A stretch of DNA of 52,496 nt, from IMG/VR virus record IMGVR_UViG_3300020131_000006, positions 1 to 52,496 of that record. One strand, given 5' to 3'. Below are positions 198-51,918 of this stretch, one piece after another (position 1 is the first letter of the stretch; each line of letters opens with the position of its first letter). Below the pieces are notes generated by a model. The model worked only from the letters and a program-made list of their open reading frames with translations, did no database searches and was not told the origin of the DNA. The DNA is from a virus. The position numbers and the translations under genes were made by a program.

Positions 198-1436
198 ATG
201 AATATAGATATAATAATAATAAAAATATTATTAAATAAAGATATATTTAATAAATATTTTAATGTAATAGATTTAAATTACTATAAAAATAATAACAAAG
301 AACTTTACAAAGTCTTTGCTATCCTTCCAACACTTCACGAGAAAGCAACAGAGGATGCTTCTCTAGAAGATTTAATCTTGTTCTTCTTTACTCAATATCC
401 ACTTCTTAAACCTGAAGAGAAAGTTCTGTACGAGAACATCTTCAAGCAGGTCACAGAAGCAGAAGTAGATGCTGGTATGGCTATTGACTATCTGGAGAAA
501 CATCGGCAGCACGTCTTAGCCACTAACCTTGCTCTCAAGTGTCTGGATGTAACAAGAGGCAAGGGAAGCATTTCTGAGGTCATAGAGCTTCTAAACAACG
601 AGCGCCCTATCGAGACTATCAACGAAGAATCTTTGTTCGTCTCAGACGATTTGGATGTGCTTGCTGATACTGTTTCAACTGACTCAGGGTTGCGCTGGAG
701 ACTTCAAACCCTAAACAATATGATTGGGCCGCTAAGGAAAGGTAACTTCGGGTTCATCTTCAAAAGACCGGAGACAGGCGGAACTACTCTGCTAGCATCT
801 GAAGTTAGTTTCATGGCAGAGCAAGTAGATAATCCTATCGTATGGTTCAACAACGAAGAAGTAGGAAGCAAGGTAATGCTTCGGTGTTACCAAGCAGTAT
901 TTGGAATTACGCAACAAGAACTATTCACCAACCTTGATTACTACAAAGAAGAATACAACAGGCGCATTGCGGGACGAATTAAAATCTATGATGAAGCGTC
1001 AATCAAAAAGGCAACTGTTGAGAAAATCTGTGCAGAACTAAATCCGTCAGTTATTATCTTTGACCAAATTGACAAGATTGCTTGGTATGAATCTGAACGA
1101 TATGACTTGAAGATGAAAGCTATCTATCAGTGGGCGCGTGAGTTAGCAAAAACATACGGGCCTACTATCGGAGTATGTCAAGCTGGTGGTACAGCAGAAG
1201 GTAAGAAGTATCTGACTATGAATGATGTTGACTCTTCACATACAGCGAAGCAGGGTGAGGCAGACTTCATGTTAGGTATTGGTAAGACCAACAACGATGG
1301 TGAAGAGTTTGTACGGTATCTTAGTGCCTGTAAGAATAAGCTAGACCCTGAGATTCCAGAACTTCGTCATGGTAAAATGTCAGTAATTATTCAACCCGAT
1401 ATTGCACGATATGAAGATGCAATGAAATGGAAATAG
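198..1436 (+). CDS. DnaB-like replicative DNA helicase with altered Walker A
   Basis: 412 residues. The N-terminal ~125 residues form a helical DnaB-N-like domain and the rest a RecA-like motor. The helicase would unwind DNA at the fork with the primase encoded just upstream. The Walker A position (190-198) reads RPETGGTTL; related phage helicases have a lysine where residue 195 is glycine, so the key phosphate-binding lysine is missing. Walker B is VIIFDQID (about 286-293), and an arginine/glutamine-rich C-terminal part follows. The first ~100 bases of the gene are extremely AT-rich (Ile, Asn, Lys, Tyr codons) and no clear Shine-Dalgarno is seen, but these residues still fit the family's N-terminus, so I keep the ATG at 198. 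Confidence 0.88.
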   Translation: MNIDIIIIKILLNKDIFNKYFNVIDLNYYKNNNKELYKVFAILPTLHEKATEDASLEDLILFFFTQYPLLKPEEKVLYENIFKQVTEAEVDAGMAIDYLEKHRQHVLATNLALKCLDVTRGKGSISEVIELLNNERPIETINEESLFVSDDLDVLADTVSTDSGLRWRLQTLNNMIGPLRKGNFGFIFKRPETGGTTLLASEVSFMAEQVDNPIVWFNNEEVGSKVMLRCYQAVFGITQQELFTNLDYYKEEYNRRIAGRIKIYDEASIKKATVEKICAELNPSVIIFDQIDKIAWYESERYDLKMKAIYQWARELAKTYGPTIGVCQAGGTAEGKKYLTMNDVDSSHTAKQGEADFMLGIGKTNNDGEEFVRYLSACKNKLDPEIPELRHGKMSVIIQPDIARYEDAMKWK

Positions 1437-1604: not shown

Positions 1605-1741
1605 TGTATTACAATAGAGAGCTAAATGATTCCTTGTTTGGTTGTCTGATATTGGAATACTTTTACACCAACGAGCATACATTCCCTGAAGGATACACTC
1701 TAGGGGATTTTCATGAACGACTTATGAATTGGATTACATGA
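1604..1741 (+). CDS. small protein of unknown function
   Basis: 45 residues with aromatic and acidic character. It starts at an ATG overlapping the stop of the gene before, and its TGA overlaps the ATG of the DNA polymerase gene (ATGA at 1738-1741). The tight couplings on both sides are the main evidence that it is translated. No domain recognised. Confidence 0.5.
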   Translation: MYYNRELNDSLFGCLILEYFYTNEHTFPEGYTLGDFHERLMNWIT

Positions 1742-2919
1742 GACTTGTATTCGACTTTGAAACCACTGGCGCACAGAGGAATAAAGGTCATCCATTCGAC
1801 TATGTAAATAAAGCCTGTAACATTGGATTTAGAGATATTGACACAAAGCAAGTATGGATATTTAGCCTAGAGTACGATGATGAACCTTACGGAGAGAACC
1901 TTAAGCAGATACAAGAACTGCTGGATAAGACGACACTTCTCATAGGGTTCAACATGAAGTTCGATATTCATTGGCTCAGACGGTACAATCTAAATCTGAG
2001 TCGGCTATGTCGTATCTTTGATTGTCAAGGTGCTTTCTTTATCAAGTCAGGACAGATGGTTAGATACCCATCTCTGAATGGGGTAGCAGAACACTTTGGC
2101 GCAGAGGCTAAACTAGATGTAGTAAAGGAAGAGTATTGGGACAAGGGTTTAGACACAGACCAAGTTCCGTACAGGCTACTCTGTGAGTACTTAGAGCAAG
2201 ACTTGGTTGTAACAGAACAAGTATTCTTTGAGCTTCAGAAGTGGCTAGAGTCCAGTTCTTTTGAGACTAAGCGGGTAGTATCAGTAACAATGCAAGACCT
2301 CTTGGTGTTAGAAGATATGGAATGGAATGGCATGTTATTTAATCGAGATAAGAGTATTAGAAAAGGAGACGAACTTGAAACAACAATTGAAGGAATTGAT
2401 AACCGCCTCAGAGAAATCTTTGGGCAGCCTTGGGCAAACATTAATAGTGGAGAGCATCTTTCTGCTTGCCTTTATGGTGGGACTGTTCTATTGGACGGTT
2501 ACGAGTCTTACACTTTTGTTTACAAAGATGGACGAGAAGCAGAAAAACAAAGAAAAGTCAAAGTCCCGCACACTTGCAAACCTTTGTTTAGCCCACTGGA
2601 AGGAACTGCTCTTGCAAAAGAAGGCTTCTATTCAACAGACGTTGGTACGCTTAAAAAACTTGGTGAGAAAGCCAAGGGGGTGCAACGGGAAGTCATCGAG
2701 CTTCTAACCAATCGAAGTAAACTTGAGAAACGTAGAGGCACATACTTCCATGGTATTCCCAAGAAGGCAATTGAGTTTAATTGGGAAGATAATGTAGTAC
2801 ATGCCAATCTGAATCAATGTGTTGCCAGAACAGGCCGGCTTAGTTCCGATAAACCAAACCTGCAAAACATTGAGGAAGATGTGAAAGAAGTATTTATTAC
2901 GAGGTTCTCCTATGGGTGA
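1738..2919 (+). CDS. DNA polymerase family A, N-terminal part (exonuclease and start of palm)
   Basis: 393 residues from ATG 1738; a longer TTG-started reading from 1729 is less likely because 1738 gives an ATGA coupling. The first ~180 residues are a proofreading 3'-5' exonuclease: DFETTG (Exo I), NMKFDIHWL (Exo II) and YLEQDLVV (Exo III). The polymerase part follows, with RTGRLSSDKPNLQNI just before the end. The protein stops immediately before motif A, and that motif opens the gene at 3147. The polymerase is therefore encoded by two genes with a small unrelated gene between. The two products presumably assemble into one enzyme. From memory, LUZ24-like phages interrupt the polymerase gene as well, but by an intron. 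Confidence 0.88.
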   Translation: MRLVFDFETTGAQRNKGHPFDYVNKACNIGFRDIDTKQVWIFSLEYDDEPYGENLKQIQELLDKTTLLIGFNMKFDIHWLRRYNLNLSRLCRIFDCQGAFFIKSGQMVRYPSLNGVAEHFGAEAKLDVVKEEYWDKGLDTDQVPYRLLCEYLEQDLVVTEQVFFELQKWLESSSFETKRVVSVTMQDLLVLEDMEWNGMLFNRDKSIRKGDELETTIEGIDNRLREIFGQPWANINSGEHLSACLYGGTVLLDGYESYTFVYKDGREAEKQRKVKVPHTCKPLFSPLEGTALAKEGFYSTDVGTLKKLGEKAKGVQREVIELLTNRSKLEKRRGTYFHGIPKKAIEFNWEDNVVHANLNQCVARTGRLSSDKPNLQNIEEDVKEVFITRFSYG

Positions 2920-3157
2920 AATGGCAGAGTATTATTTGGAGCAAAGTCTATTTGGAGAAGATTGGGAATGGGCACACAACCCAATACCAAGACGAAGAAC
3001 TACATGGACAACCAGAGAAGGTAAGATACTAGAAATTTCCAAAATGGAAACTTCCCATATTAAGAACTGCATTAATTTACTTCGTAAGAAACAAATTCCA
3101 GTACCCTCTGAGTTTTACCGTGTTCTAAAAGAAAGGGGGGAAGGGAATGCTCGCTAA
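2912..3157 (+). CDS. small gene inserted between the two polymerase halves
   Basis: 81 residues. The middle resembles a widespread small phage/bacterial motif of the form W-T-x-x-[DE]-G-x-x-[IL]-x-I-x-x-M-x-x-x-H-[LI]-x-N, here WTTREGKILEISKMETSHIKN. GAGG (2901-2904) is a good ribosome binding site. It overlaps the end of the upstream polymerase half by 8 bases and the start of the downstream half by 11, so it exactly fills the gap. Its function is unknown and nothing in it suggests a polymerase domain. It is read in a third frame relative to both halves. Confidence 0.72.
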   Translation: MGEMAEYYLEQSLFGEDWEWAHNPIPRRRTTWTTREGKILEISKMETSHIKNCINLLRKKQIPVPSEFYRVLKERGEGNAR

Positions 3158-3899
3158 CTTCGACGCAGCACAACTAGAATGGAGAGCTTTTGCTCACCTT
3201 TCTGGAGATAAAACAGCTATCCGTGAGATTAACGAAGGTTTGGACTTCCACTCTGATAATCAGGAAAAGTTTAAACTTCCTTCTCGTCTGGTAGCTAAAG
3301 TCTTTCTATTTAGAAACATCTACTGTCCTTGGTGGTTGGCTGAACGGACCGCATATGCTTATTCGGTTGACAATGACTTTAAGGATGTGGGTGGTGTTAA
3401 GTTTTGGAGAGCTGCTATTGATGCTTTCTATGAAAAATACACAGGAGGTTATGAGTACCACAAGAAGCTCAAGAATGAGGCTACAACTACAGGGCAAATC
3501 ATTAGTGAAACAGGCCGCATCCATCCTATTCAGCCCGTCCTCAGACGTGGGCAAATGGAATGGCCTGATAGTGACATAGCCAACTATCCTGTTCAGGGCT
3601 TCAGCGCCGACCTAATGGCCTTGGCGCGGGTGTCTGCGTGGAATAGACTGCGGGAATATCGAGAGAGAGGCGAAGTATTATTCGTTAATTCAGTACATGA
3701 CTCGATAGTTCTTGACATAAATACAGATGAATGGTATAATATTTGTATAACTATGAAAAAGACGTTCAGAGATATTCCTGCGAACTTCGAGAAAATATAC
3801 GGGAAGAAACTTTTGGTTCCTATGGATTCAGATGCAAAGGTAGGAGTCAATTGGTTGTGGCAACATAAAATACAAATACAAGAAAAGGATTTACATTAA
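3147..3899 (+). CDS. DNA polymerase family A, C-terminal part (palm and fingers)
   Basis: 250 residues beginning at motif A, NFDAAQLEWR (residues 4-13), with the metal-binding aspartate. The motif B helix RLVAKVFLFRNIY (about 47-59) follows, and motif C is SVHDSIVLD, with the second catalytic aspartate. A strong ribosome binding site (AAGGGGGGAAGGG) precedes ATG 3147. Where family members normally continue IYG, this protein reads IYCPWWLAERTAYAYS, so the glycine is replaced and about seven residues are added. Joined to the upstream half, the sequence runs VFITRFSYG then MLANFDAAQ with no missing family residues. Confidence 0.88.
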   Translation: MLANFDAAQLEWRAFAHLSGDKTAIREINEGLDFHSDNQEKFKLPSRLVAKVFLFRNIYCPWWLAERTAYAYSVDNDFKDVGGVKFWRAAIDAFYEKYTGGYEYHKKLKNEATTTGQIISETGRIHPIQPVLRRGQMEWPDSDIANYPVQGFSADLMALARVSAWNRLREYRERGEVLFVNSVHDSIVLDINTDEWYNICITMKKTFRDIPANFEKIYGKKLLVPMDSDAKVGVNWLWQHKIQIQEKDLH

Positions 3900-5885: not shown

Positions 5886-6049
5886 ACCACCTTACCACAC
5901 ACTCCATCACTGGAGCCTATCGCAACGGAGCAAACTGGATTGAGGCTGTATGGGACGAGTCCGGTAGCTTCATGTTAGACGGCTCTGACCACCCTCTAGA
6001 CATTATCTTTGATAACTCCAAGATTAAAAATGCTCTTGGCAGGGCCTAA
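5828..6049 (+). CDS. small protein of unknown function
   Basis: 73 residues. I take ATG 5828, which has AAGGACGAAGT as ribosome binding site; an in-frame ATG at 5795 lies deeper inside the exonuclease gene and has no such site. The sequence is mixed beta-like with an acidic surface. The stop overlaps the ATG of the HNH gene. No family recognised. Confidence 0.55.
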   Translation: MEFQENIQFKTRNNTDVRVDHLTTHSITGAYRNGANWIEAVWDESGSFMLDGSDHPLDIIFDNSKIKNALGRA

Positions 6050-6435
6050 TGTCTTGGACTGAAGGTCGACGCAAGGCATTTATAACATCTACCATTCGTA
6101 GCGGATTCAGAAGGTATCCAGAGAAGTTTGAAGTACTAAAGGAAGCAGCAGTCGGTAAAAAAATAAATAGCAAGTCCGGCAGAATGGCTCTCCATTATAA
6201 ATGTGCCTCATGCTCTAAGAGCTTCCCAACTAAAGAAGTACAAGTAGACCATATCAATCCAGTGGTTGACCCCATTGTAGGATTTAAAGATTGGGATACA
6301 TTCATTTCTAGGTTGTTCTGTTCTAAAGAGAACCTTCAAGTATTGTGTTTAGAATGCCATAAGAAGAAAACGAAGTCTGAAAAAGAGCAACGCGATAAGT
6401 CCTTAAAGAGCTTATCTAAAAAGGATAAAGAATGA
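6049..6435 (+). CDS. HNH endonuclease
   Basis: 128 residues. A zinc-stabilised HNH fold is visible: CASC (52-55), VDHINPV (66-72) with the catalytic His, then NLQVLC and CHKKKT (95-108) with the second Cys pair and the metal-binding His. The C-terminus is lysine-rich. It may be a freestanding homing nuclease or a replication/packaging accessory nuclease; embedding in an overlapping operon slightly favours a fixed function. It is unrelated to the second HNH gene at 28786. Confidence 0.88.
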   Translation: MSWTEGRRKAFITSTIRSGFRRYPEKFEVLKEAAVGKKINSKSGRMALHYKCASCSKSFPTKEVQVDHINPVVDPIVGFKDWDTFISRLFCSKENLQVLCLECHKKKTKSEKEQRDKSLKSLSKKDKE

Positions 6436-6662: not shown

Positions 6663-6886
6663 GTAAGAATGACGTAACTGGCGATGAAATTAAATCAAAA
6701 GTTCCTTCTAAAGAGTTCCTAGATAACTATGACCGCATCTTCCGTAATCGAATAGATACTATCGGACAGAACGGTAACGAAGGACTCCACTACGATGCTC
6801 TATGTAATATCTGCGGGAAGGAACTAGAAAAGGTCACAGAATGTGCATGGACTTCATGCCCAAAGTGGCTAAGGGAAACTAAATGA
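6659..6886 (+). CDS. small zinc-binding protein
   Basis: 75 residues. The C-terminal part has Cys residues spaced CNICGKE, then C and SCPKW, which could bind a single zinc. The N-terminus (MSKNDVTGDEIKSK) resembles a recurrent short phage protein opening. It overlaps its neighbours by 4 bases on each side. Function unknown. Confidence 0.58.
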   Translation: MSKNDVTGDEIKSKVPSKEFLDNYDRIFRNRIDTIGQNGNEGLHYDALCNICGKELEKVTECAWTSCPKWLRETK

Positions 6887-7626
6887 AAATACTTCTGCTG
6901 GACATTGAAACAGCACCAAGCCTTGCATACATTTGGGGAATCTGGCAAGAGAACATCCCACTTGAGAGGTTGTTAGAATCTGGATATATCTTGTGTTGGG
7001 CTGCTAAATGGTTAGGTGAGGATGAAATCTTTTTCGATTCCGTCCAAACAAAGAGTCAGAAGGGTATGCTGAGAACCATCTATAAACTGCTCGATGAAGC
7101 TGATGCAGTTATGCACTACAATGGGAAGAAGTTTGACATTCCTACTCTTAATAGAGAATTTGTAGAGGTTGGTTGGACTCCACCTTCTCCCTATAAACAG
7201 ATAGACTTGTTGGAAACAGTTAGAGGTAACTTTAAACTACCGTCATACAAGTTAGAGTATGTGGCTAAATTCTTCGGGATTGGTGAAAAGTTTAAGCACA
7301 GTGGTTTCTCTGTGTGGGATGGTTGCATTAGGGGTGATAAAGCATCTTGGGAAGAAATGTCAAAGTATAACAAGATTGACACTACACTTCTAGAAGCTCT
7401 TTACTTTAAACTCCAACCTTGGATTAAACGTCATCCCAACTATTCTCTGTACTCAGATGATAGGATGGTATGTCCTAACTGCGGTGGTCATCACTTGGTT
7501 AAACGTGGTACACATAAGACACTACATAGTATCTTCCAAAGATACAAATGTAAGGGTTGTGGTAAATGGTGTCACGATAACAAGCGACTCAACGCTCAAG
7601 AGTTTAAGACTGTGGGTATAGAATGA
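6883..7626 (+). CDS. DEDD-family 3'-5' exonuclease with zinc ribbon
   Basis: 247 residues. The N-terminal ~180 residues carry an RNase H-like exonuclease: LLDIETAPS (5-12, first Asp and Glu), MHYNGKKFDIPTL (77-89, second Asp) and YNKIDTTLL (162-170, final Asp). A C-terminal zinc ribbon has CPNCGG (197-202) and CKGCGK (223-228). This resembles predicted exonucleases related to PolB proofreading domains. It may act on DNA ends or RNA during replication or recombination. It is the second proofreading-type nuclease here besides that in the polymerase. Confidence 0.82.
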   Translation: MKILLLDIETAPSLAYIWGIWQENIPLERLLESGYILCWAAKWLGEDEIFFDSVQTKSQKGMLRTIYKLLDEADAVMHYNGKKFDIPTLNREFVEVGWTPPSPYKQIDLLETVRGNFKLPSYKLEYVAKFFGIGEKFKHSGFSVWDGCIRGDKASWEEMSKYNKIDTTLLEALYFKLQPWIKRHPNYSLYSDDRMVCPNCGGHHLVKRGTHKTLHSIFQRYKCKGCGKWCHDNKRLNAQEFKTVGIE

Positions 7627-44029: not shown

Positions 44030-45469
44030 ATGTGTGGCCTACTCGCATTCCACACAGCGGATAAGATAGGGTTTCAATCAGCGGATAGGGATAGCTTTCG
44101 ACAGATGCTGATTCTTACCTCATTACGTGGGAACCATTCAACAGGTGTGGCTGGTATCTCAAAGAATGTAGATAAGAATGATGTAAGTATTGTGAAAACT
44201 ACAGGCAGTCCCTATGCTTTGTTTGCATATACCAAGACAGATGAGTTCCTGACTCGCATGTTTAATGAGTTCGGTACGGTCATCGGGCATTGCCGCTATG
44301 CCACGCGCGGTGAGATTACAGCAGTAAACGCGCATCCTTTTGAAGAGGAACATATCACACTGGCACATAACGGAGTGATTAATAACTATCACCAACTGCG
44401 GGATTACAAGCGACATTCTGACATTACTGTGGACTCTCACTTAATTGCTCGTATGTTTGCTGAGGAACATCCACTTGACATTCTGCCAAAGGTAGAAGGT
44501 GCTTATGTCTTTATGTGGATTAATTCTGAAGAGGGTAGCTTTAACATTGCTCGTAACTTAGAACGTCCATTGTTCGTATCTCAGAAGGAGCATCAAGCTA
44601 CACTTGCCTTTGCATCGGAAGCACAAACCCTGTCATGGAACTCTTCCCGTAATAATATGAAATGTTCTGAGCCGACAGAGATTAAACCTTTCCATATCTA
44701 TACATACCCACGTGGTTCCATTGAGCCAGTGATTACGGAGTACAAGCCAGAACCAAAAAAAGTTATTATCTACCCGAATCAAGGTGGGCATGAAAGACAA
44801 CACCATAAAAATAATGATAACTTCTCTAAGGTAACACCCATAGATAAAAAGGTTCAGAAGAAGGGAAGTCCTCACGAAGCAGACGAGACTGACATTCTTA
44901 CCTTGAACACGGCATTGGATGTGACTCTGGAAGTAAATCAAGTTGTCAATATTTGGGTAGATGATTATGAGGACATGGATGGTTACACCGTCATCCGTTG
45001 TTATAGTGATGAATACCCGAATGTGGAGTTCTATATCAATACAACTCCAGAAAAAGCAATAGAAATTCTAGATGCTGATTCTCTCCGCGGTAATGTGAAT
45101 GGTATCCACCTAGTACCATCTGAGAAAACAGATAAGGGACTTCGTTGGAGAGCATATGTATCTAACTTTGTGTTTGTCTATGAGCCTAGTGAGCAAAAGA
45201 CAGAGTTTGGGCCAGTAGAGGAACCTAAGAAAACCAAAGTAACTTACAAGTACTCTCGTCGTAAGATGGGAGATATGCTTAAGATAGTTGAGTATCCTTC
45301 TGGAGAACTTATTAAAGTATCCAGACGTACATTCTTGACTTGGTGTGAGAAAGGTTGCTCTTGGTGTCAATCAGAGATAACCCAAGCTGAAGCTGATAAT
45401 TATCAGAAGCTCTTTCTTATGGATGATGAGGTTATTTGTCGTAGTTGTTCTGATACTGTTCGTAATTAA
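44030..45469 (+). CDS. class II glutamine amidotransferase
   Basis: 479 residues. The N-terminal ~230 residues are an Ntn-type glutaminase: catalytic Cys 2 (MCGLLAF), LRGNHSTG (32-39), GHCRYATRGE (86-95), AHPF (101-104) and LAHNGVINN (111-119). It would release ammonia from glutamine for transfer to a partner. The middle (about 240-380) is of unknown type and the C-terminus has four cysteines (CEKGCSWC and CRSC) that may bind zinc. No synthetase domain is fused. With the amidoligases and ATP-grasp enzyme downstream it probably forms one pathway. Confidence 0.85.
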   Translation: MCGLLAFHTADKIGFQSADRDSFRQMLILTSLRGNHSTGVAGISKNVDKNDVSIVKTTGSPYALFAYTKTDEFLTRMFNEFGTVIGHCRYATRGEITAVNAHPFEEEHITLAHNGVINNYHQLRDYKRHSDITVDSHLIARMFAEEHPLDILPKVEGAYVFMWINSEEGSFNIARNLERPLFVSQKEHQATLAFASEAQTLSWNSSRNNMKCSEPTEIKPFHIYTYPRGSIEPVITEYKPEPKKVIIYPNQGGHERQHHKNNDNFSKVTPIDKKVQKKGSPHEADETDILTLNTALDVTLEVNQVVNIWVDDYEDMDGYTVIRCYSDEYPNVEFYINTTPEKAIEILDADSLRGNVNGIHLVPSEKTDKGLRWRAYVSNFVFVYEPSEQKTEFGPVEEPKKTKVTYKYSRRKMGDMLKIVEYPSGELIKVSRRTFLTWCEKGCSWCQSEITQAEADNYQKLFLMDDEVICRSCSDTVRN

Positions 45470-45480
45470 TGGAGGACTAA

Positions 45481-45714
45481 ATGCAAAGAGGGGGTAATTC
45501 AGTATGTGATGATTGTATTAATGATATGGGAACACACTGTCGCCTACATCATGCACATCATCCAAAAATATTGGGATGCTATGACCATAAGGCAGCTCTT
45601 CCAGCTCCTGTAATCCAGCATCCACCTATTAACCAACAAAGCAAGAAACAGATTGAGTTTATTGTTACTGACCCAGAGACTAAGAAGGTAATTAAATATG
45701 CCAAACTTCCATGA
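45481..45714 (+). CDS. small Cys/His-rich protein
   Basis: 77 residues with CDDC (9-12), HCRLHHAHH and CYDH in the first 40, likely to hold one or two zinc ions, then a proline-rich linker and IEFIVTDPETKKVIKYAKL. Starts 11 bases after the amidotransferase. Possibly a protein-binding partner in the pathway. No family recognised. Confidence 0.6.
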   Translation: MQRGGNSVCDDCINDMGTHCRLHHAHHPKILGCYDHKAALPAPVIQHPPINQQSKKQIEFIVTDPETKKVIKYAKLP

Positions 45715-46537
45715 GACACCTCCAACTATTCCAGTCTTTCAAAACCGGGATAGAGTTATTTATCAAGGTCTATCCTCTACTGAGGAAATAGTGTACTCCA
45801 CTACTCATATTTGTTTTGGGTTGTTTGGCTCACACCATTTCAGAAAGGAGTTCTTAGAAGTTCCAGACCTTACTTATTTTCAAACATGGTTTGGTGACTC
45901 TTTATCTCTTGTTCTCAAAGAAGAGGGATGGGCTGAGAAATTCATAGATGCCTTGAAAACAACAGGACTTCTTGAAAATGTAGACCTAAAAGTACTTGAC
46001 AAAAAAGATATTACTAAGAAGGAATCTGAAGCTTTTTCGTATGTTGCTTCTGCTGATAAAGCATTACGCATGGTTCGATTGAGGTTCGACCTTAATAAAG
46101 TATCTTCTCCGGAAATGTTTCTGATTATCTGTACCATTAGAACTCTTGCTATAAATCCGGGGGTAATTTATGACAGCCTTCTGTTGTGGGAGAAACATCC
46201 AGATGTATCTTATTGGAATTGTCTTATAGCAGCCCATGGTATAAATATGGGGACATATCGCTCACACCATCCGCTCCACGGCCTATGCTCAAGTAAAGTT
46301 GGGTATGTTTTAAGCACAGTTGAGGAAATTCTAGAAGTACTAAAGCGTGAGCGAAAAGTACTAGCAATCAAAGATATGCAATATACCCGTGTTATATGGG
46401 ATACTGTAATTCATGCGGATTTTAGGTATGGCCCTATACCGGCTTACTCTGAAGAACTATTTAATTCTTATATGGGGGAAAAACAATTCAAAGAATATGT
46501 AAAAGCTCATCCAAAAACAAACAGACCAGCATGGTAA
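45698..46537 (+). CDS. unknown protein in the amidoligase cluster
   Basis: 279 residues, mixed alpha/beta with histidine pairs (SHHFRKE, SHHPLHGLC) and no recognised motif. It overlaps the preceding gene by 17 bases and is followed, after AAGGAG, by the class I amidotransferase-like gene. Co-transcription with pathway enzymes suggests a role as substrate-binding or modifying protein, but nothing in the sequence proves it. Confidence 0.58.
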   Translation: MPNFHETPPTIPVFQNRDRVIYQGLSSTEEIVYSTTHICFGLFGSHHFRKEFLEVPDLTYFQTWFGDSLSLVLKEEGWAEKFIDALKTTGLLENVDLKVLDKKDITKKESEAFSYVASADKALRMVRLRFDLNKVSSPEMFLIICTIRTLAINPGVIYDSLLLWEKHPDVSYWNCLIAAHGINMGTYRSHHPLHGLCSSKVGYVLSTVEEILEVLKRERKVLAIKDMQYTRVIWDTVIHADFRYGPIPAYSEELFNSYMGEKQFKEYVKAHPKTNRPAW

Positions 46538-46552
46538 TTTAAGGAGAAACAA

Positions 46553-47206
46553 ATGGCACGTTTAGTAGCAATCGGTAATTTCTTTGGGGCACATGCTCCG
46601 TTTCAAGACTTATTCAAAGAGGTAGTTGTCATGTCGTTGGGTAAGTATGCAACCTTTGAATTGAAAGATGATGATGTTGTATTGTTTGGCGGTGGTGCTG
46701 ACATTAGCCCATCAATCTATAACCAAGTTCCAAGCAGACATACAGGCGCACGTGCCGAGCTGTCTGATAGGGATGAAGTAGAAGTGTATATGTTTAATGC
46801 AGCTAAGAAGAAGAACCTTCCGATGCTTGGTATCTGTCGTGGTGCACAATTAGTATGTGCTTTATCCGGTGGTTCCTTGATTCAGCATGTGTCTAATCAT
46901 GCAGGGCCGAATCATAAGATTGCTACCAATGAGGGTACGGTCATTGATGTGTGTTCTGTGCATCATCAAATGATGAACCCATTCTCAACTAAGCATGAGC
47001 TTATTGCGTGGGCGCATCGACGGCTATCCCCACATTACATTGTTGCAAATGAACTTGAAGTTGAAATGAAGGTAGAACCTGAAGTAGTTTATTTTCCTGA
47101 GACGAAAGCTTTGGGTATCCAATACCATCCTGAGTTTATGCACCCTGACGACCAAGGCGTTATCTACGCTCGTGAGTTGGTTGCTAAATATCTTCTGAAG
47201 GAGTAA
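46553..47206 (+). CDS. class I glutamine amidotransferase-like (gamma-glutamyl hydrolase type)
   Basis: 217 residues, the size of a single GATase-1 or peptidase C26 domain. Nucleophile elbow LGICRGAQ (92-99, Cys 95) and IQYHPEF (189-195, His 192, Glu 194) form the triad, with FGGGADISPS (45-54) typical of gamma-glutamyl-GABA hydrolase-like members. It may cleave a gamma-glutamyl bond made by the ligases or provide ammonia. AAGGAGAAACAA precedes the start. Confidence 0.85.
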   Translation: MARLVAIGNFFGAHAPFQDLFKEVVVMSLGKYATFELKDDDVVLFGGGADISPSIYNQVPSRHTGARAELSDRDEVEVYMFNAAKKKNLPMLGICRGAQLVCALSGGSLIQHVSNHAGPNHKIATNEGTVIDVCSVHHQMMNPFSTKHELIAWAHRRLSPHYIVANELEVEMKVEPEVVYFPETKALGIQYHPEFMHPDDQGVIYARELVAKYLLKE

Positions 47207-47210
47207 GACC

Positions 47211-47657
47211 ATGTTTTTTGATGATATGACTACAGCACGCTATAAGAAACTTATAGCTAATCTGTCTAAAGAAATTAAAAAAGAGGTTAAGGTATATTTT
47301 CCTCTAATGGATGGTGATGGTTATGATGAGAATGATTCGGCACTAGTTCAGATTTCTGTTGAGGGACAAGCACGAAAATTTAGTGCTTATTTTGACGGGT
47401 ATCCAAGTAATTGCGGCATAGCTATTCTTAATAATATGGCACTGACTTCTGATAAAGCTCAGAACAAAGCTTTTCTAAAATTCCTTCTTGACTTGGCTGA
47501 GTCTGCTAATTATACGCAAGTTCATTATACAGCAACAGACCATCAAATTGGGATTCGTGATTTACTCGACGAGTGTGGCTTTGTAGAGATAGAGGCTCTC
47601 CGTTTTGAAAATAAACGAACTGGCAGTCTGCTGTTCTATTACTCAATGGAGATATAG
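47211..47657 (+). CDS. GNAT-like protein, first of two
   Basis: 148 residues. Shared with the 47695 gene: PSNCGIAILNNMA, a helix, YTQVHYTA, LLDECGFVEIEAL and FENKRTGS. The order resembles the C-terminal half of GNAT acetyltransferases (beta4, helix, beta5, Leu-Leu-x-x-x-GF). The pyrophosphate-binding loop is poorly conserved. In amidoligase neighbourhoods, GNAT-fold enzymes can transfer amino acids or acyl groups to a peptide. Fold call is moderate. Confidence 0.58.
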   Translation: MFFDDMTTARYKKLIANLSKEIKKEVKVYFPLMDGDGYDENDSALVQISVEGQARKFSAYFDGYPSNCGIAILNNMALTSDKAQNKAFLKFLLDLAESANYTQVHYTATDHQIGIRDLLDECGFVEIEALRFENKRTGSLLFYYSMEI

Positions 47658-47673
47658 GTTACAACCTTGTAAC
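47658..47673. repeat. 16-bp palindromic repeat, copy 11
   Basis: GTTACAACCTTGTAAC touches the stop of the first GNAT-like gene and lies 21 bases before the second. It is the only copy with CC in the centre, i.e. the reverse orientation of the GG copies. Confidence 0.88.
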
Positions 47674-47694
47674 AATCTAATATAGGAGAGTGTT

Positions 47695-48144
47695 ATGTGG
47701 CTGAGGATATTTAAAGAGCATATCAAGAAGGATATCGAAAAAGAATTACCTGATAAGTTCTCGGTGGAGTATGGTGTTTTATCAGCGGATTACAAAAGTA
47801 TACATCGTCTTCGGTTTACGACGCAAGAAGACACATATACTAGGACACTGTTTTCAGTTAGGTTAACACAGTTTCCAGAAAATTGCGGTATTGTTTTGGT
47901 AGCTGGTTTAATCTCTGACACAGATGAACTCAGAAGCATTGGTCTAAGGGCCATTAAGTCACAGTGTTATGATGCTGGATATACTCAGTTATTATACACT
48001 GTGAATGAGAAGCAAGAGGCATTAAAAGAGGCTCTTTTAGAGTTTGGTTTTGTTGAGCATCCATCTCTAAGTTTTCTGAATCATCGCTCAGGTAAACAAA
48101 TTACGTATCTTTCTTATGACTTAAGGAGCAAGAACAATGTATAA
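47695..48144 (+). CDS. GNAT-like protein, second of two
   Basis: 149 residues, paralogue of the 47211 gene: PENCGIVLVAGLI, YTQLLYTV, LLEFGFVEHPSL and LNHRSGK align in order. Probably arose by duplication, with palindrome copy 11 between. It starts with AGGAGAGTGTT upstream and overlaps the amidoligase gene by 8 bases. Catalytic residues of classical GNATs are not clear. Confidence 0.58.
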   Translation: MWLRIFKEHIKKDIEKELPDKFSVEYGVLSADYKSIHRLRFTTQEDTYTRTLFSVRLTQFPENCGIVLVAGLISDTDELRSIGLRAIKSQCYDAGYTQLLYTVNEKQEALKEALLEFGFVEHPSLSFLNHRSGKQITYLSYDLRSKNNV

Positions 48145-48910
48145 TAATCTGCAACGCGGGGCTGACCCTGAACTCTTCTTACGGGATAAGCATAACTTTC
48201 CCGTAACAGCGATTGGTCTGATTGGGGGTAGTAAGAATGTGCCAAGGCAAATCGGTAATGGGTTTGCTTTGCAAGAGGATAATGTAGCTGTGGAGTTCAA
48301 CATTCCACCAGCTTCCTCTAAGGAACAGTTTGTTTCGTCCATTCACTTTGTACTTGACTTCTTACGTCAAGAACTAGCACCCAAGGAATTACACCTTGAC
48401 ATTTCTCCAACTATGGAATTTACAGAGGAGCAACTTGACCATCCACAGGCTCGTCAGTTTGGATGTGAGCCGGACTTCAATGCGTGGACTCTGGACATTA
48501 ACCCACGACCCAAAGCACCAGCAAACTTCCGTAGTAGTGGTGGTCACTTACATCTAGGTTGGGATGATCCAACTGAGGAAGAACAGGTTCGATTGATTAA
48601 GGCCCATGACTTATTCTGTGGTGTGCCTTCATTGATATACGACCCTGACGTTAAGCGTCGTGAAGTATATGGCAAGGCAGGGGCATGTCGTTTCAAAGAT
48701 TATGGTGTGGAGTATCGCACTCTATCGAACTTCTGGCTGAAGAGTGAAGAGTTGACAGCTTGGCTTTTCGAACAGTCGGAGAAAGCAGTTAAGTTTGTGA
48801 AAGACCAGAATAAATTATCTGAAGAAGATTGTGCTAAGATAGTTCATTGTATCAATGCATCTGATCATCAGCTTCTTGCAGAGTTGAATGAGAAGTTTGC
48901 AATTCTATAG
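48137..48910 (+). CDS. amidoligase, phiEco32-like COOH.NH2 ligase type 2
   Basis: 257 residues. Glutamine-synthetase-like landmarks: RGADPELFL (7-15), QEDNVAVEFNIPP (46-58), FRSSGGHLHLGW (131-142) and YGKAGACRFKDYGVEYRT (178-195). The repeated acidic and histidine residues would hold metal-ATP for joining a carboxylate to an amine. This family is known from phage phiEco32 and its relatives; its substrate has not been shown to my knowledge. AAGGAGCAAGAACA precedes the start. Confidence 0.85.
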   Translation: MYNNLQRGADPELFLRDKHNFPVTAIGLIGGSKNVPRQIGNGFALQEDNVAVEFNIPPASSKEQFVSSIHFVLDFLRQELAPKELHLDISPTMEFTEEQLDHPQARQFGCEPDFNAWTLDINPRPKAPANFRSSGGHLHLGWDDPTEEEQVRLIKAHDLFCGVPSLIYDPDVKRREVYGKAGACRFKDYGVEYRTLSNFWLKSEELTAWLFEQSEKAVKFVKDQNKLSEEDCAKIVHCINASDHQLLAELNEKFAIL

Positions 48911-48919
48911 GATTCTAAT

Positions 48920-49639
48920 ATGGATAATTTCAATGCAAAGGAATTACAGCGGCGGTATGGGGGAACGTATGTAAGTATCTTCCGCAAAGATACTAAGGAG
49001 ATTGTCGGAGCCTATGTAGATAGGATACATGCGGATGAGAACTTAACAGCAATACCCTCCGCTGTTCTCTATGTACTTCCCAAAGAGAAATCTGAGGAAT
49101 ATGTAATTAAAGGGTCTAAGGGGGACATGGGAAAAGCTGTTCTCCCACTTAGTCACTTTACCATTCTACCAATGCCACCGGCACGTGTCTTTGATGTTAA
49201 TGGGGTTACTATAGTATTCCGACGTGATCCTGCTAGACAGTGGCAGCGAGGACTTACTGGACAGAACGGAACGTTCCATAATCCACTGTACACATTCCTA
49301 ACTTCGGTAAAGAACTTCAAAGTTAAACGTGAACAGTTCAGATTATCTTTACAAGAGATTAATAATCTTTTGATTGGGGAGAGTGCTGGTAGTTTTAACA
49401 AAGCTCTGAATGATATTGAGGACTACAAGCTGTTGTCTAGAACTATCAACGATAAGTACTTTATCTCGTTGTATCCAGACAAGCAGCATGAGTATCTGCT
49501 ATTCCGAATGGAAGAGCCTCTGGCTTATTACAGTAGGGTTACAGATACCTTTACTGTTGTGAATCCTTTATTCGAGCAAGAGGTAAGTGATTTTATTCGT
49601 CGCAATAACTTGCGTTCATTTGTGAAGAGGGCCAATTAA
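48920..49639 (+). CDS. unknown protein between the two amidoligases
   Basis: 239 residues, basic alpha/beta protein (FRRDPARQWQRGLTGQNG, about 101-118; ending RNNLRSFVKRAN). It has no motif I recognise. Position between two amidoligase genes with no gap implies it takes part in the same pathway, perhaps as carrier or acceptor recognition protein. Inference only. Confidence 0.6.
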   Translation: MDNFNAKELQRRYGGTYVSIFRKDTKEIVGAYVDRIHADENLTAIPSAVLYVLPKEKSEEYVIKGSKGDMGKAVLPLSHFTILPMPPARVFDVNGVTIVFRRDPARQWQRGLTGQNGTFHNPLYTFLTSVKNFKVKREQFRLSLQEINNLLIGESAGSFNKALNDIEDYKLLSRTINDKYFISLYPDKQHEYLLFRMEEPLAYYSRVTDTFTVVNPLFEQEVSDFIRRNNLRSFVKRAN

Positions 49640-51133
49640 ATGAGAGTCAGAGATATGTTTCATGCGCCGGACTTCCTAGATGAAACAGAAATCTTATTGA
49701 AGATAGCACAAGATAAGAAGTATGTTTCTCCTGTTAAGATGGCAGTTGATGATGTTTTTGTGGGCATTGAGGTAGAGGTTGAACGAGTGTTCCGAACCAA
49801 TGGTATTCTCCCTCTGCCTTCGTCCGGTAACTTCCTATGGAAGAATGTAGAGGATGGAAGCCTACGTAACAATGGTCGAGAGTTTGTTTCTATTCCCATT
49901 CGTGGGGATACAATTCCATTCGCTCTTGAGGTATTGAATCGTACTCTCAATAAAGAGAAACTCTGCATTGGTCATGAGTTCTCTGAGAGAACCTCTGTGC
50001 ATGTTCATGTTGATGTTCGGGCAATGACTACTGAGCAGCTACAGAGCTTTATCCTGACGTACATTCTGTTAGAACCCCTGTTCTATAACTACACAGGAGA
50101 CACACGGTATAACAATATCTTCTGTGTACCTTTGAACTATTCAAATCTCAACAAGGTACTTAAGAGACTCTTTGATGATTTGCAAAAGGGAATTGCTCAT
50201 AAAGCTATGGGCGGTATTAATACATGGCCTAAGTACACAGGGTTTAACCTTAAACCAGTTACAACGTATGGTACTGTTGAGTTTCGGCATATGGGTGGAA
50301 CTTGTGATGTTGCTGAGTTGTCCAACTGGATCAATTTAATCTTACGGTTGCATCGGTACGCTGAGGGACAATCGTTTGAGAAGTTGAAGAGCCGCATCCT
50401 TAATATGAATACAACGTCAGAGTATATGCAAATTGTCTCTGAGATATTCGGCAATGACTTGTACTTGATTCGTGAGGATAAGTTGGTGCAGCATATGGAA
50501 GATATGGTTGTCTTTATTAAGGATATTTTCTCAAACGTATCTGTTAGCACACTCTTTTCCGCGGAACTAAAATCAAATTTCCCTGAAGAGTTATTAGATT
50601 GTAAGTTTGTCAAACATGCCACAGATGCAGGATGGTGGGTTAAGGTTAGGCTGCCATTTACTCGTGATGAATATCATACTTTCTTGGCAACAAGTGGACA
50701 TAATACGGAATATATTTCTTGGTTGTTTGAGTTCCACAAACGACACGCTATCAAGGTTCGGGATGACGACGAATTGCTTCTTCTATCTCACGAGCATATG
50801 AGATATTACTTGGACGAAGTACAGAAAAAGGAAAAGAAGGAAGTGGTGAAGAAGCGTGCCACACCACGGGAGCCTAGAGTGGAAGCTGTTGGTGGATGGG
50901 GGGGTGTTAACCCCAATCGAGATGATGCTATAGCGGCAATGGCCGCCGCCGCCCGTCGTGGTCTTGACCCTGATGTTGCAGCAGCAGCTCTTCGTGTGGA
51001 TGCGGTACCACCACTAAGGCCATTCGGCGAACAGCCGCAAGCAGAACCAGCCCCACGTCGTAGAGGACAGGTAGCAGAAATAGTTCAAGATGAAAATGGA
51101 AATGCAAATCTTATTTGGAGGGACATAGAATGA
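49640..51133 (+). CDS. amidoligase (Amidoligase_2-like)
   Basis: 497 residues. Landmarks: VGIEVEVERV (41-50), EDGSLRNNGREFVSIP (71-86), TSVHVHVDVRAM (118-129) and VEFRHMGGT (213-221). These acidic and histidine clusters match the GS-like amidoligase fold, different in detail from the 48137 gene. The C-terminal ~80 residues (from about 416) are a disordered Ala/Arg/Pro-rich tail, which could tether a partner or be a substrate itself. Starts directly after the previous stop. Confidence 0.82.
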   Translation: MRVRDMFHAPDFLDETEILLKIAQDKKYVSPVKMAVDDVFVGIEVEVERVFRTNGILPLPSSGNFLWKNVEDGSLRNNGREFVSIPIRGDTIPFALEVLNRTLNKEKLCIGHEFSERTSVHVHVDVRAMTTEQLQSFILTYILLEPLFYNYTGDTRYNNIFCVPLNYSNLNKVLKRLFDDLQKGIAHKAMGGINTWPKYTGFNLKPVTTYGTVEFRHMGGTCDVAELSNWINLILRLHRYAEGQSFEKLKSRILNMNTTSEYMQIVSEIFGNDLYLIREDKLVQHMEDMVVFIKDIFSNVSVSTLFSAELKSNFPEELLDCKFVKHATDAGWWVKVRLPFTRDEYHTFLATSGHNTEYISWLFEFHKRHAIKVRDDDELLLLSHEHMRYYLDEVQKKEKKEVVKKRATPREPRVEAVGGWGGVNPNRDDAIAAMAAAARRGLDPDVAAAALRVDAVPPLRPFGEQPQAEPAPRRRGQVAEIVQDENGNANLIWRDIE

Positions 51134-51918
51134 ACTTAGTAATATATCCATACAACTTAGGTAGTGCTTCTGCTCGTGCTTTAAAAGAAGCACTTACGGA
51201 TAGGTTACAAGCACGGGTGTTGCGGGTACGGTCATCTGCTCGTTTGCGGCAGCGTCCTCGTATCGTGTTGAATCTTGGGAATGCTAGACCACCTGAGTTC
51301 TTCCATACTCGTATGATTAATCAACCAGCCGCTGTTAATGTGGCAGGTAACAAGCTTCTGTCTTTCCAAGCTTTGAGGGATGCCAACATTCCAATTCCTG
51401 AGTTCACTACTGATATTGCTCAGGCAAGCAATTGGTTACAGGAAGGTATTTCTGTACTTTCCAGAGAAGCACTTCGTGGGCATAGTGGGGAAGGTATTGT
51501 GATAAATAATCCCAACCCAACTAATGCTGTGGCATTGGCTCCACTGTATGTCAAGTACAAAAAGAAGAAACATGAGTTCCGTGTCCATGTGTTTAATGGT
51601 CAGGTGATTGACTTGCAGCAGAAGAAGAAGATACGTGACTTCGAGCATACTGATGAACAGAAGAAAGTTCGTAGTCATCATAATGGTTGGGTATTCTGTC
51701 GAGAGGACTTAAATTTAAATGAAGAAAATCTGGTTCGAATTAAAGCTATCGCTGTATCTGCTGTTAATGTTTTGGGTTTGGATTTTGGTGCTGTTGACAT
51801 TATTTTTAATGAAAGAGAGAACGCTTTCTACGTCTTGGAAGTTAACACCGCTCCGGGCTTGGAAGGGCAGACGTTAGAATCTTATGTTGAAGCTATTGCT
51901 AATTTTGTGGGGGTATAA
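51130..51918 (+). CDS. ATP-grasp ligase
   Basis: 262 residues from ATG 51130, overlapping the amidoligase stop (ATGA). ATP-grasp signs: glycine loop SREALRGHSGEGI (111-123), KYKKKKHEFRVHVF (142-155), DFGAVDIIF (218-226) and LEVNTAPGLEG (236-246) with metal-binding Glu and Asn. Such enzymes form amide bonds through an acyl phosphate, as in D-Ala-D-Ala or RimK ligases. It is the third peptide-bond-forming enzyme in the run. Confidence 0.88.
   Translation: MNLVIYPYNLGSASARALKEALTDRLQARVLRVRSSARLRQRPRIVLNLGNARPPEFFHTRMINQPAAVNVAGNKLLSFQALRDANIPIPEFTTDIAQASNWLQEGISVLSREALRGHSGEGIVINNPNPTNAVALAPLYVKYKKKKHEFRVHVFNGQVIDLQQKKKIRDFEHTDEQKKVRSHHNGWVFCREDLNLNEENLVRIKAIAVSAVNVLGLDFGAVDIIFNERENAFYVLEVNTAPGLEGQTLESYVEAIANFVGV

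Follow-up and report, generated by a model that had tools for sequence, protein, structure and literature searches.

How does a phage come by a working DNA polymerase when the gene is broken directly in front of the catalytic core? In the stretch of viral DNA analyzed here (52,496 bases, herein the window), the family A polymerase is encoded by two open reading frames (ORFs), an exonuclease/thumb chain (N half) and a fingers/palm chain (C half), that lie 227 bases apart with a small ORF between them in a third frame (Table 1). The question is whether the enzyme is made of two polypeptides or whether splicing or frameshifting yields a single chain. The small ORF overlaps the N half by 8 bases (2912-2919) and the C half by 11 bases (3147-3157); a GAGG lies 7 bases upstream of its ATG, a G-rich stretch (AAAGGGGGGAAGGGA) lies upstream of the ATG of the C half, and GGGTGA and GGGGGG runs are present at the junctions. 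An earlier note on this DNA had described a polymerase gene split before motif A by an 81-residue gene, together with its frame, overlaps, distance, and G runs; all of these are confirmed, and the position of the split is correct to the base, with PF00476 found in both halves.

The ATG of the N half overlaps the stop codon of an ORF at 1592-1741. An HNH endonuclease gene (6049-6435) lies about 2 kb downstream of the polymerase. Elsewhere in the window, genes at 44030-51918 form a cluster that may encode a peptide-ligation pathway (Table 1).

Table 1. Features of the window, and loci of relatives grouped by junction gene or by the form of motif A
Feature	Position in window or loci	Strand	Description
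DnaB-like helicase	198-1436	+	Upstream of the first polymerase ORF
PolA chain 1 (N half)	1738-2919	+	393 aa from ATG 1738; DEDDy 3'-5' exonuclease, thumb, and first part of palm
Junction ORF	2912-3157	+	81 aa, third frame; optional, overlaps both chains
PolA chain 2 (C half)	3147-3899	+	250 aa; motif A strand, fingers (motif B), catalytic palm with motif C
6-residue in-frame insertion	3324-3350	+	Just after the motif B helix; IYCPWWLAERTAYAY, IY-CPWWLAERT-AYAY vs. IY-GGS-AYSY (IYGGSAYSY)
Glutamine amidotransferase-like gene	44030-45469		In cluster 44030-51918
COOH.NH2 ligase gene	48137-48910		In cluster 44030-51918
Amidoligase gene	49640-51133		In cluster 44030-51918
S6 glutaminyl transferase-like gene	51115-51918		In cluster 44030-51918
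Acidic junction family	L008, L013, L015, L017, L020, L030, L039, L120, L130, and others		Small protein between the halves
Junction endonuclease family	L028, L058, L101, L107, L113, L115, L163, L181, L183, L188		Directly upstream of the C half
Motif A, one base missing (-1)	L107, L183, L188		GCAAAGC; endonuclease loci
Motif A, +4 bases	L028, L113, L115, L181		CTT T CTT; endonuclease loci
Motif A, +6 bases	L058, L101, L163		Leu-stop-Leu; endonuclease loci

The N half matches the PF01612 3'-5' exonuclease domain (Pfam, E = 1.4e-6) and covers positions 53 through 133 of PF00476, the first third of the profile; the C half covers positions 154 through 379 (E = 1.1e-19), from motif A onward. In a profile alignment, the first residue of the C half corresponds to about residue 700 of Escherichia coli Pol I, just before D705 in the numbering of the Klenow entry. 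The N half ends in VFITRFSYG, and the window sequence across the break (TRF-SYG / M-LANFDAAQLE) has the same spacing as fused HMO-2011-type enzymes (SRF-ENG-Q-ILEADFAQLE). Because the start Met replaces one loop residue of the fused enzymes, no polymerase residue is lost, precisely as had been claimed. Motifs A, B, and C of a Pol I-type family A enzyme are all present, with the catalytic Asp, the O-helix R/K, and HD; the motif A Asp (D6 of the C half), R47/K51/F55 of motif B, and H184-D185 of motif C are invariant in the family. The N half contains a DEDDy 3'-5' exonuclease domain, in which D6, E8, D76, Y151, and D155 (aligned numbering) are invariant in nine aligned N halves in addition to the PF01612 match. 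Searching the 52,496-base record, which is possibly incomplete, with PF00476 for a second, intact polymerase, which the earlier note had named as a refutation of its reading, gave none; a separate exonuclease gene (6883-7626) is the only other partial match in the record.

The six extra residues that follow the motif B helix are unique to the window among the approximately 40 C halves compared. AlphaFold2 models this insertion as an extension of the helix with confidence >90; it could in principle impair activity. It lies near the site, immediately ahead of the motif B sequence LIYGG, at which some relatives (L056, L057, L059, L062, and L166) carry intron-like insertions that contain an HNH gene.

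Loci were gathered from public phages and viral contigs by searches with the C half and by profile alignments of both halves, and each polymerase locus was classed as split or fused by open frame. The halves lie in different ORFs in 99 distinct loci (the window and the ICP2-like phages included), and about two dozen loci, mostly of the HMO-2011 type, are fused; a scan of genome_contigs (contigs filed under MAGs/single-cell genomes) gave one split locus (L192) and a distant fused one (L202). Of the intact, intron-bearing, and split forms for which the earlier note had proposed to survey related phages, the split and intact ones are both found; the intron-like insertions sit within motif B, and an intron at the junction is unlikely. 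The window has no close relative, its best match being about 48% in the C half. Window-type loci share the profile positions of both edges of the cut, which falls directly before the motif A strand, and they form a single clade. As this cut point recurs throughout the clade, the split in the window is not due to chance.

The sequence between the halves shows no such constancy. The gap ranges from -17 (an overlap) to +3598 bases; for the 88 loci with an intact C-half start it is ≤0 in 16, 1 to 100 in 19, 101 to 400 in 38, and larger in 15, and the relative frame of the halves is 0, 1, or 2 in 26, 25, and 37 of them, respectively. In most loci the C half opens with a start codon of its own, placed precisely at the cut. 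Loci with no gene between the halves have gaps of -17, -14, -1, and 0: in L003 and L018 the C-half ATG directly follows the stop codon (TAA-ATG in L018), and in Alcaligenes phage QDWS535, where two polymerase genes are annotated, stop and start overlap by one base (TAATG). At the other end of the range, the halves of L007 are separated by 3.6 kb and eight ORFs, a C5-methyltransferase gene among them. The split arrangement is viable, since MEP401 and MEP402, which have it, are isolated, growing phages.

A tree of 67 representatives, made by a quick method and with some long branches among the fused rows, places the 39 window-type split enzymes on one side of a branch (SH-aLRT 100) and the ICP2-type split enzymes in a separate group; two state changes suffice. 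On this tree, the same loop region before motif A was cut twice, independently, once in each type. The window pairs with L018 (support 96), its nearest row; because the halves of L018 abut, the split is older than the insert of the window.

The ORFs found at junctions across the clade are unrelated to one another, range from 30 to 390 codons, and can amount to several genes at one junction; they include a membrane-anchored small protein and HNH endonucleases, and some junctions hold nothing. Many loci have a small acidic protein of about 50 to 100 residues (E-E-A-H/Y...F..I...G) between the halves, and ORF14 of MEP401 belongs to this family. Its profile has no match outside the junction in the surveyed loci, and the protein is possibly a polymerase partner or third subunit. 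Against PHROG, the 81-residue ORF of the window gives weak hits to families of unknown function (phrog_16964 at best, E = 0.0028), and against Pfam it gives none; no relatives were found in phages (tblastn), in viral_contigs, or in the rest of the record, and a regular expression for its W-T-T-x-x-G...H-I-x-N motif matched only the ORF itself among 179 loci. Two identities were rejected for it: a homing endonuclease, given the lack of a Pfam match, and a divergent member of the acidic family, whose profile has no match in the window at E = 1. The free-standing homing endonuclease that is typical of genes in pieces is absent from the junction of the window, though some relatives do have one. 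We treat the 81-residue ORF as a putative optional passenger, since halves without an intervening gene are common in the clade, L018 included. The same loci, and the filling of the slot by unrelated genes, speak against the earlier proposal that insertion of the small gene caused the split.

Taken together, we consider it very probable that the polymerase consists of two polypeptides that stem from one ancestral fission in the clade, with the junction serving as a slot for passenger genes. Chain 1 would bring the proofreading exonuclease, the thumb, and the first elements of the palm; chain 2, beginning with the β-strand of motif A, would bring the fingers, the catalytic palm, and motif C. Both would be translated from overlapping genes on one strand, possibly with translational coupling, and would associate noncovalently into a normal Pol I-like fold with polymerase activity, the break lying in a surface loop that precedes the motif A strand. 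Fission happened once, in the ancestor of the window-type clade, after which unrelated genes would have come and gone at the junction, the 81-residue gene of the window being one such passenger. Several relatives carry a homing endonuclease gene at the junction, so that the fission may plausibly have arisen when such a gene invaded.

Structure prediction, with alignments made without rows from annotated phage records, is consistent with such an assembly. The C half of the window alone is predicted by AlphaFold2 with a pLDDT of 95.2 and a pTM of 0.90, and it resembles the palm/fingers of Pol I and Pol theta (Foldseek). The halves of L018, modeled as a single chain with the stop codon read as Gly, give a pLDDT of 95.0 and a pTM of 0.91, a read-through design that favors assembly by construction. 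This model matches E. coli, Bacillus, and Taq Pol I full-length (E. coli, Foldseek E = 1.3e-26; Bacillus, Z = 34.3 over 541 residues in VIA-align), and its junction, residue 385, sits in the loop that leads into the motif A strand. Together, the two halves are predicted to fold as Pol I, and the earlier view that a functional polymerase would have to assemble from two chains is supported.

Could the junction instead be a self-splicing intron, removed to leave a single-chain polymerase, as was raised for MEP401 (PMC10580990)? The clade does contain group I-like insertions that carry HNH genes, but these interrupt motif B within the C half (L056, L057, L059, and L062). Rfam has no match on the window or ICP2, nor on the intron-like insertions of relatives (L057 and L059), and its gathering thresholds flag none of the four motif B insertions scanned, so that its silence is weak evidence. 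What makes an intron very unlikely is that sister loci with overlapping or abutting halves leave nothing to splice, that most C halves have a start codon of their own at the cut, and that the junctions hold ORFs unrelated to one another. A second route to one long chain, programmed +1 frameshifting at both junctions with the 81-residue segment included, had been left open by the earlier note on account of the G runs; G-rich runs and short overlaps do lie at both junctions of the window. It would require two consecutive shifts, and the resulting chain would carry about 80 foreign residues alongside the motif A strand; all three relative frames occur in the clade, and relatives lack the 81-residue segment. 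We regard it as extremely unlikely. Halves that abut or overlap, frames that change, and junction genes that are unrelated argue against either mechanism as a general explanation.

It is likewise extremely improbable that the split gene is a decaying pseudogene and that the phage uses the host polymerase. The unusual insertion beside motif B in the window would fit decay; all catalytic residues are nevertheless retained, and genes for a helicase, a 5'-3' exonuclease, and a ribonucleotide reductase accompany the polymerase. Simple Nei-Gojobori counts on 305 nonindependent pairs of split loci, which measure the clade and not the window itself, give a median dN/dS of 0.18 in the N half and 0.12 in the C half. 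Values so far below 1 indicate purifying selection on each half across the clade. Joining by a split intein was rejected: the end of one chain and the start of the other fall at homologous positions of the polymerase, which leaves no space for intein domains.

The two-chain reading has precedents. The split of MEP401-type phages is already published, with an intron left open as an explanation; in these OM43 phages of the Zobellviridae, the DNA polymerase is ORF13 plus ORF15, with the small ORF14 between them (PMC10580990). The window shares with them the clade, the cut point, a small junction ORF, and neighboring helicase and exonuclease genes, but its junction ORF is unrelated to ORF14 and its polymerase is only about 42 to 43% identical to MEP401-type enzymes. 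The Vibrio phages ICP2, ICP2_2013_A_Haiti, Saratov-12, and VP41s3 (Zobellviridae) also divide a family A polymerase between two ORFs, and the junction holds an HNH gene in ICP2, an 86-residue ORF in VP41s3, and nothing in Haiti and Saratov-12; unlike in the window, the cut lies about 14 residues upstream (NLQNISN / MSDIKRC...) and is a separate event on the tree. The HNH endonuclease of ICP2 is ORF51 (L010, 7212-7661), and the ICP2 record annotates the polymerase as joined.

Among other enzymes in pieces, gp43 of Aeromonas phages 25 and 44RR is likewise a two-chain replicative polymerase, with a homing endonuclease or an untranslated segment at the junction; in phage 25, 43A co-purifies with 43B, and the two are active as a polymerase (PMC2988022). 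NrdA of phage Aeh1 (mobE insertion) and T4 gene 39/60 (mobA) also yield two polypeptides next to free-standing homing endonucleases, and the split NrdA is fully active (PMC2988022). By analogy, the co-purification and activity of split gp43 and the full activity of split NrdA support two chains here. The differences are that gp43 belongs to family B, an unrelated polymerase family, that NrdA and gene 39/60 are different enzymes, and that the junction of the window has no endonuclease; unlike that of gp43, the split described here marks a broad clade, with junctions that usually hold small nonendonuclease genes or none. A review of phage DNA polymerase swapping does not mention splits (PMC11348598).

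Some relatives combine a junction endonuclease with an interrupted motif A. Ten loci have one endonuclease family directly upstream of the C half (phrog_3322 in three members scanned, E = 1e-27 to 1e-32; L163 and L188 were placed in the family by eye or partial match), and motif A is interrupted in all 10, between D-x-K-x and L-E, by -1, +4, or +6 bases (Table 1). The +6 form reads CTT TAG CTA, CTG TAA CTG, and similar. Leu-stop-Leu also occurs without the endonuclease in L165 and L166, and L009 has one extra base in motif A. Among 95 loci not picked for an interrupted motif A, interruption was found in 6/6 with the endonuclease vs. 1/89 (Fisher P = 8e-9), several of the six being close relatives. 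Past the interruption, synonymous changes dominate (eight synonymous and no nonsynonymous in L113 vs. the intact L111), and in each form the exact wild-type motif A would be restored if the ribosome slipped or hopped to an identical or synonymous codon. The window has neither the endonuclease nor the interruption.

We tentatively suggest, giving the idea appreciable but not preponderant weight, that the junction is a homing site and that recoding allows resistant alleles in these relatives to be expressed. A known parallel is T4 gene 60 and the homing endonuclease next to it. Stop-hops with matched codons flanking the stop are known from synthetic constructs, and a 2016 review knew of no natural case of in-frame stop-hopping (PMC5009743). 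The Leu-stop-Leu loci are candidates for natural ribosomal stop-hopping tied to homing-endonuclease immunity; if this is true, they would supply the natural in-frame case absent from that review.

For the MEP401-type marine phages, the choice between an intron and two chains would now be settled as far as sequence can settle it, and the junction stands out as a place where small genes and homing endonucleases settle. For the engineering of Pol I enzymes in two parts, the cut sites may serve as natural split points. A split before the strand that bears the catalytic Asp, kept across a broad phage clade, implies that the Pol I core can be obligately heterodimeric.
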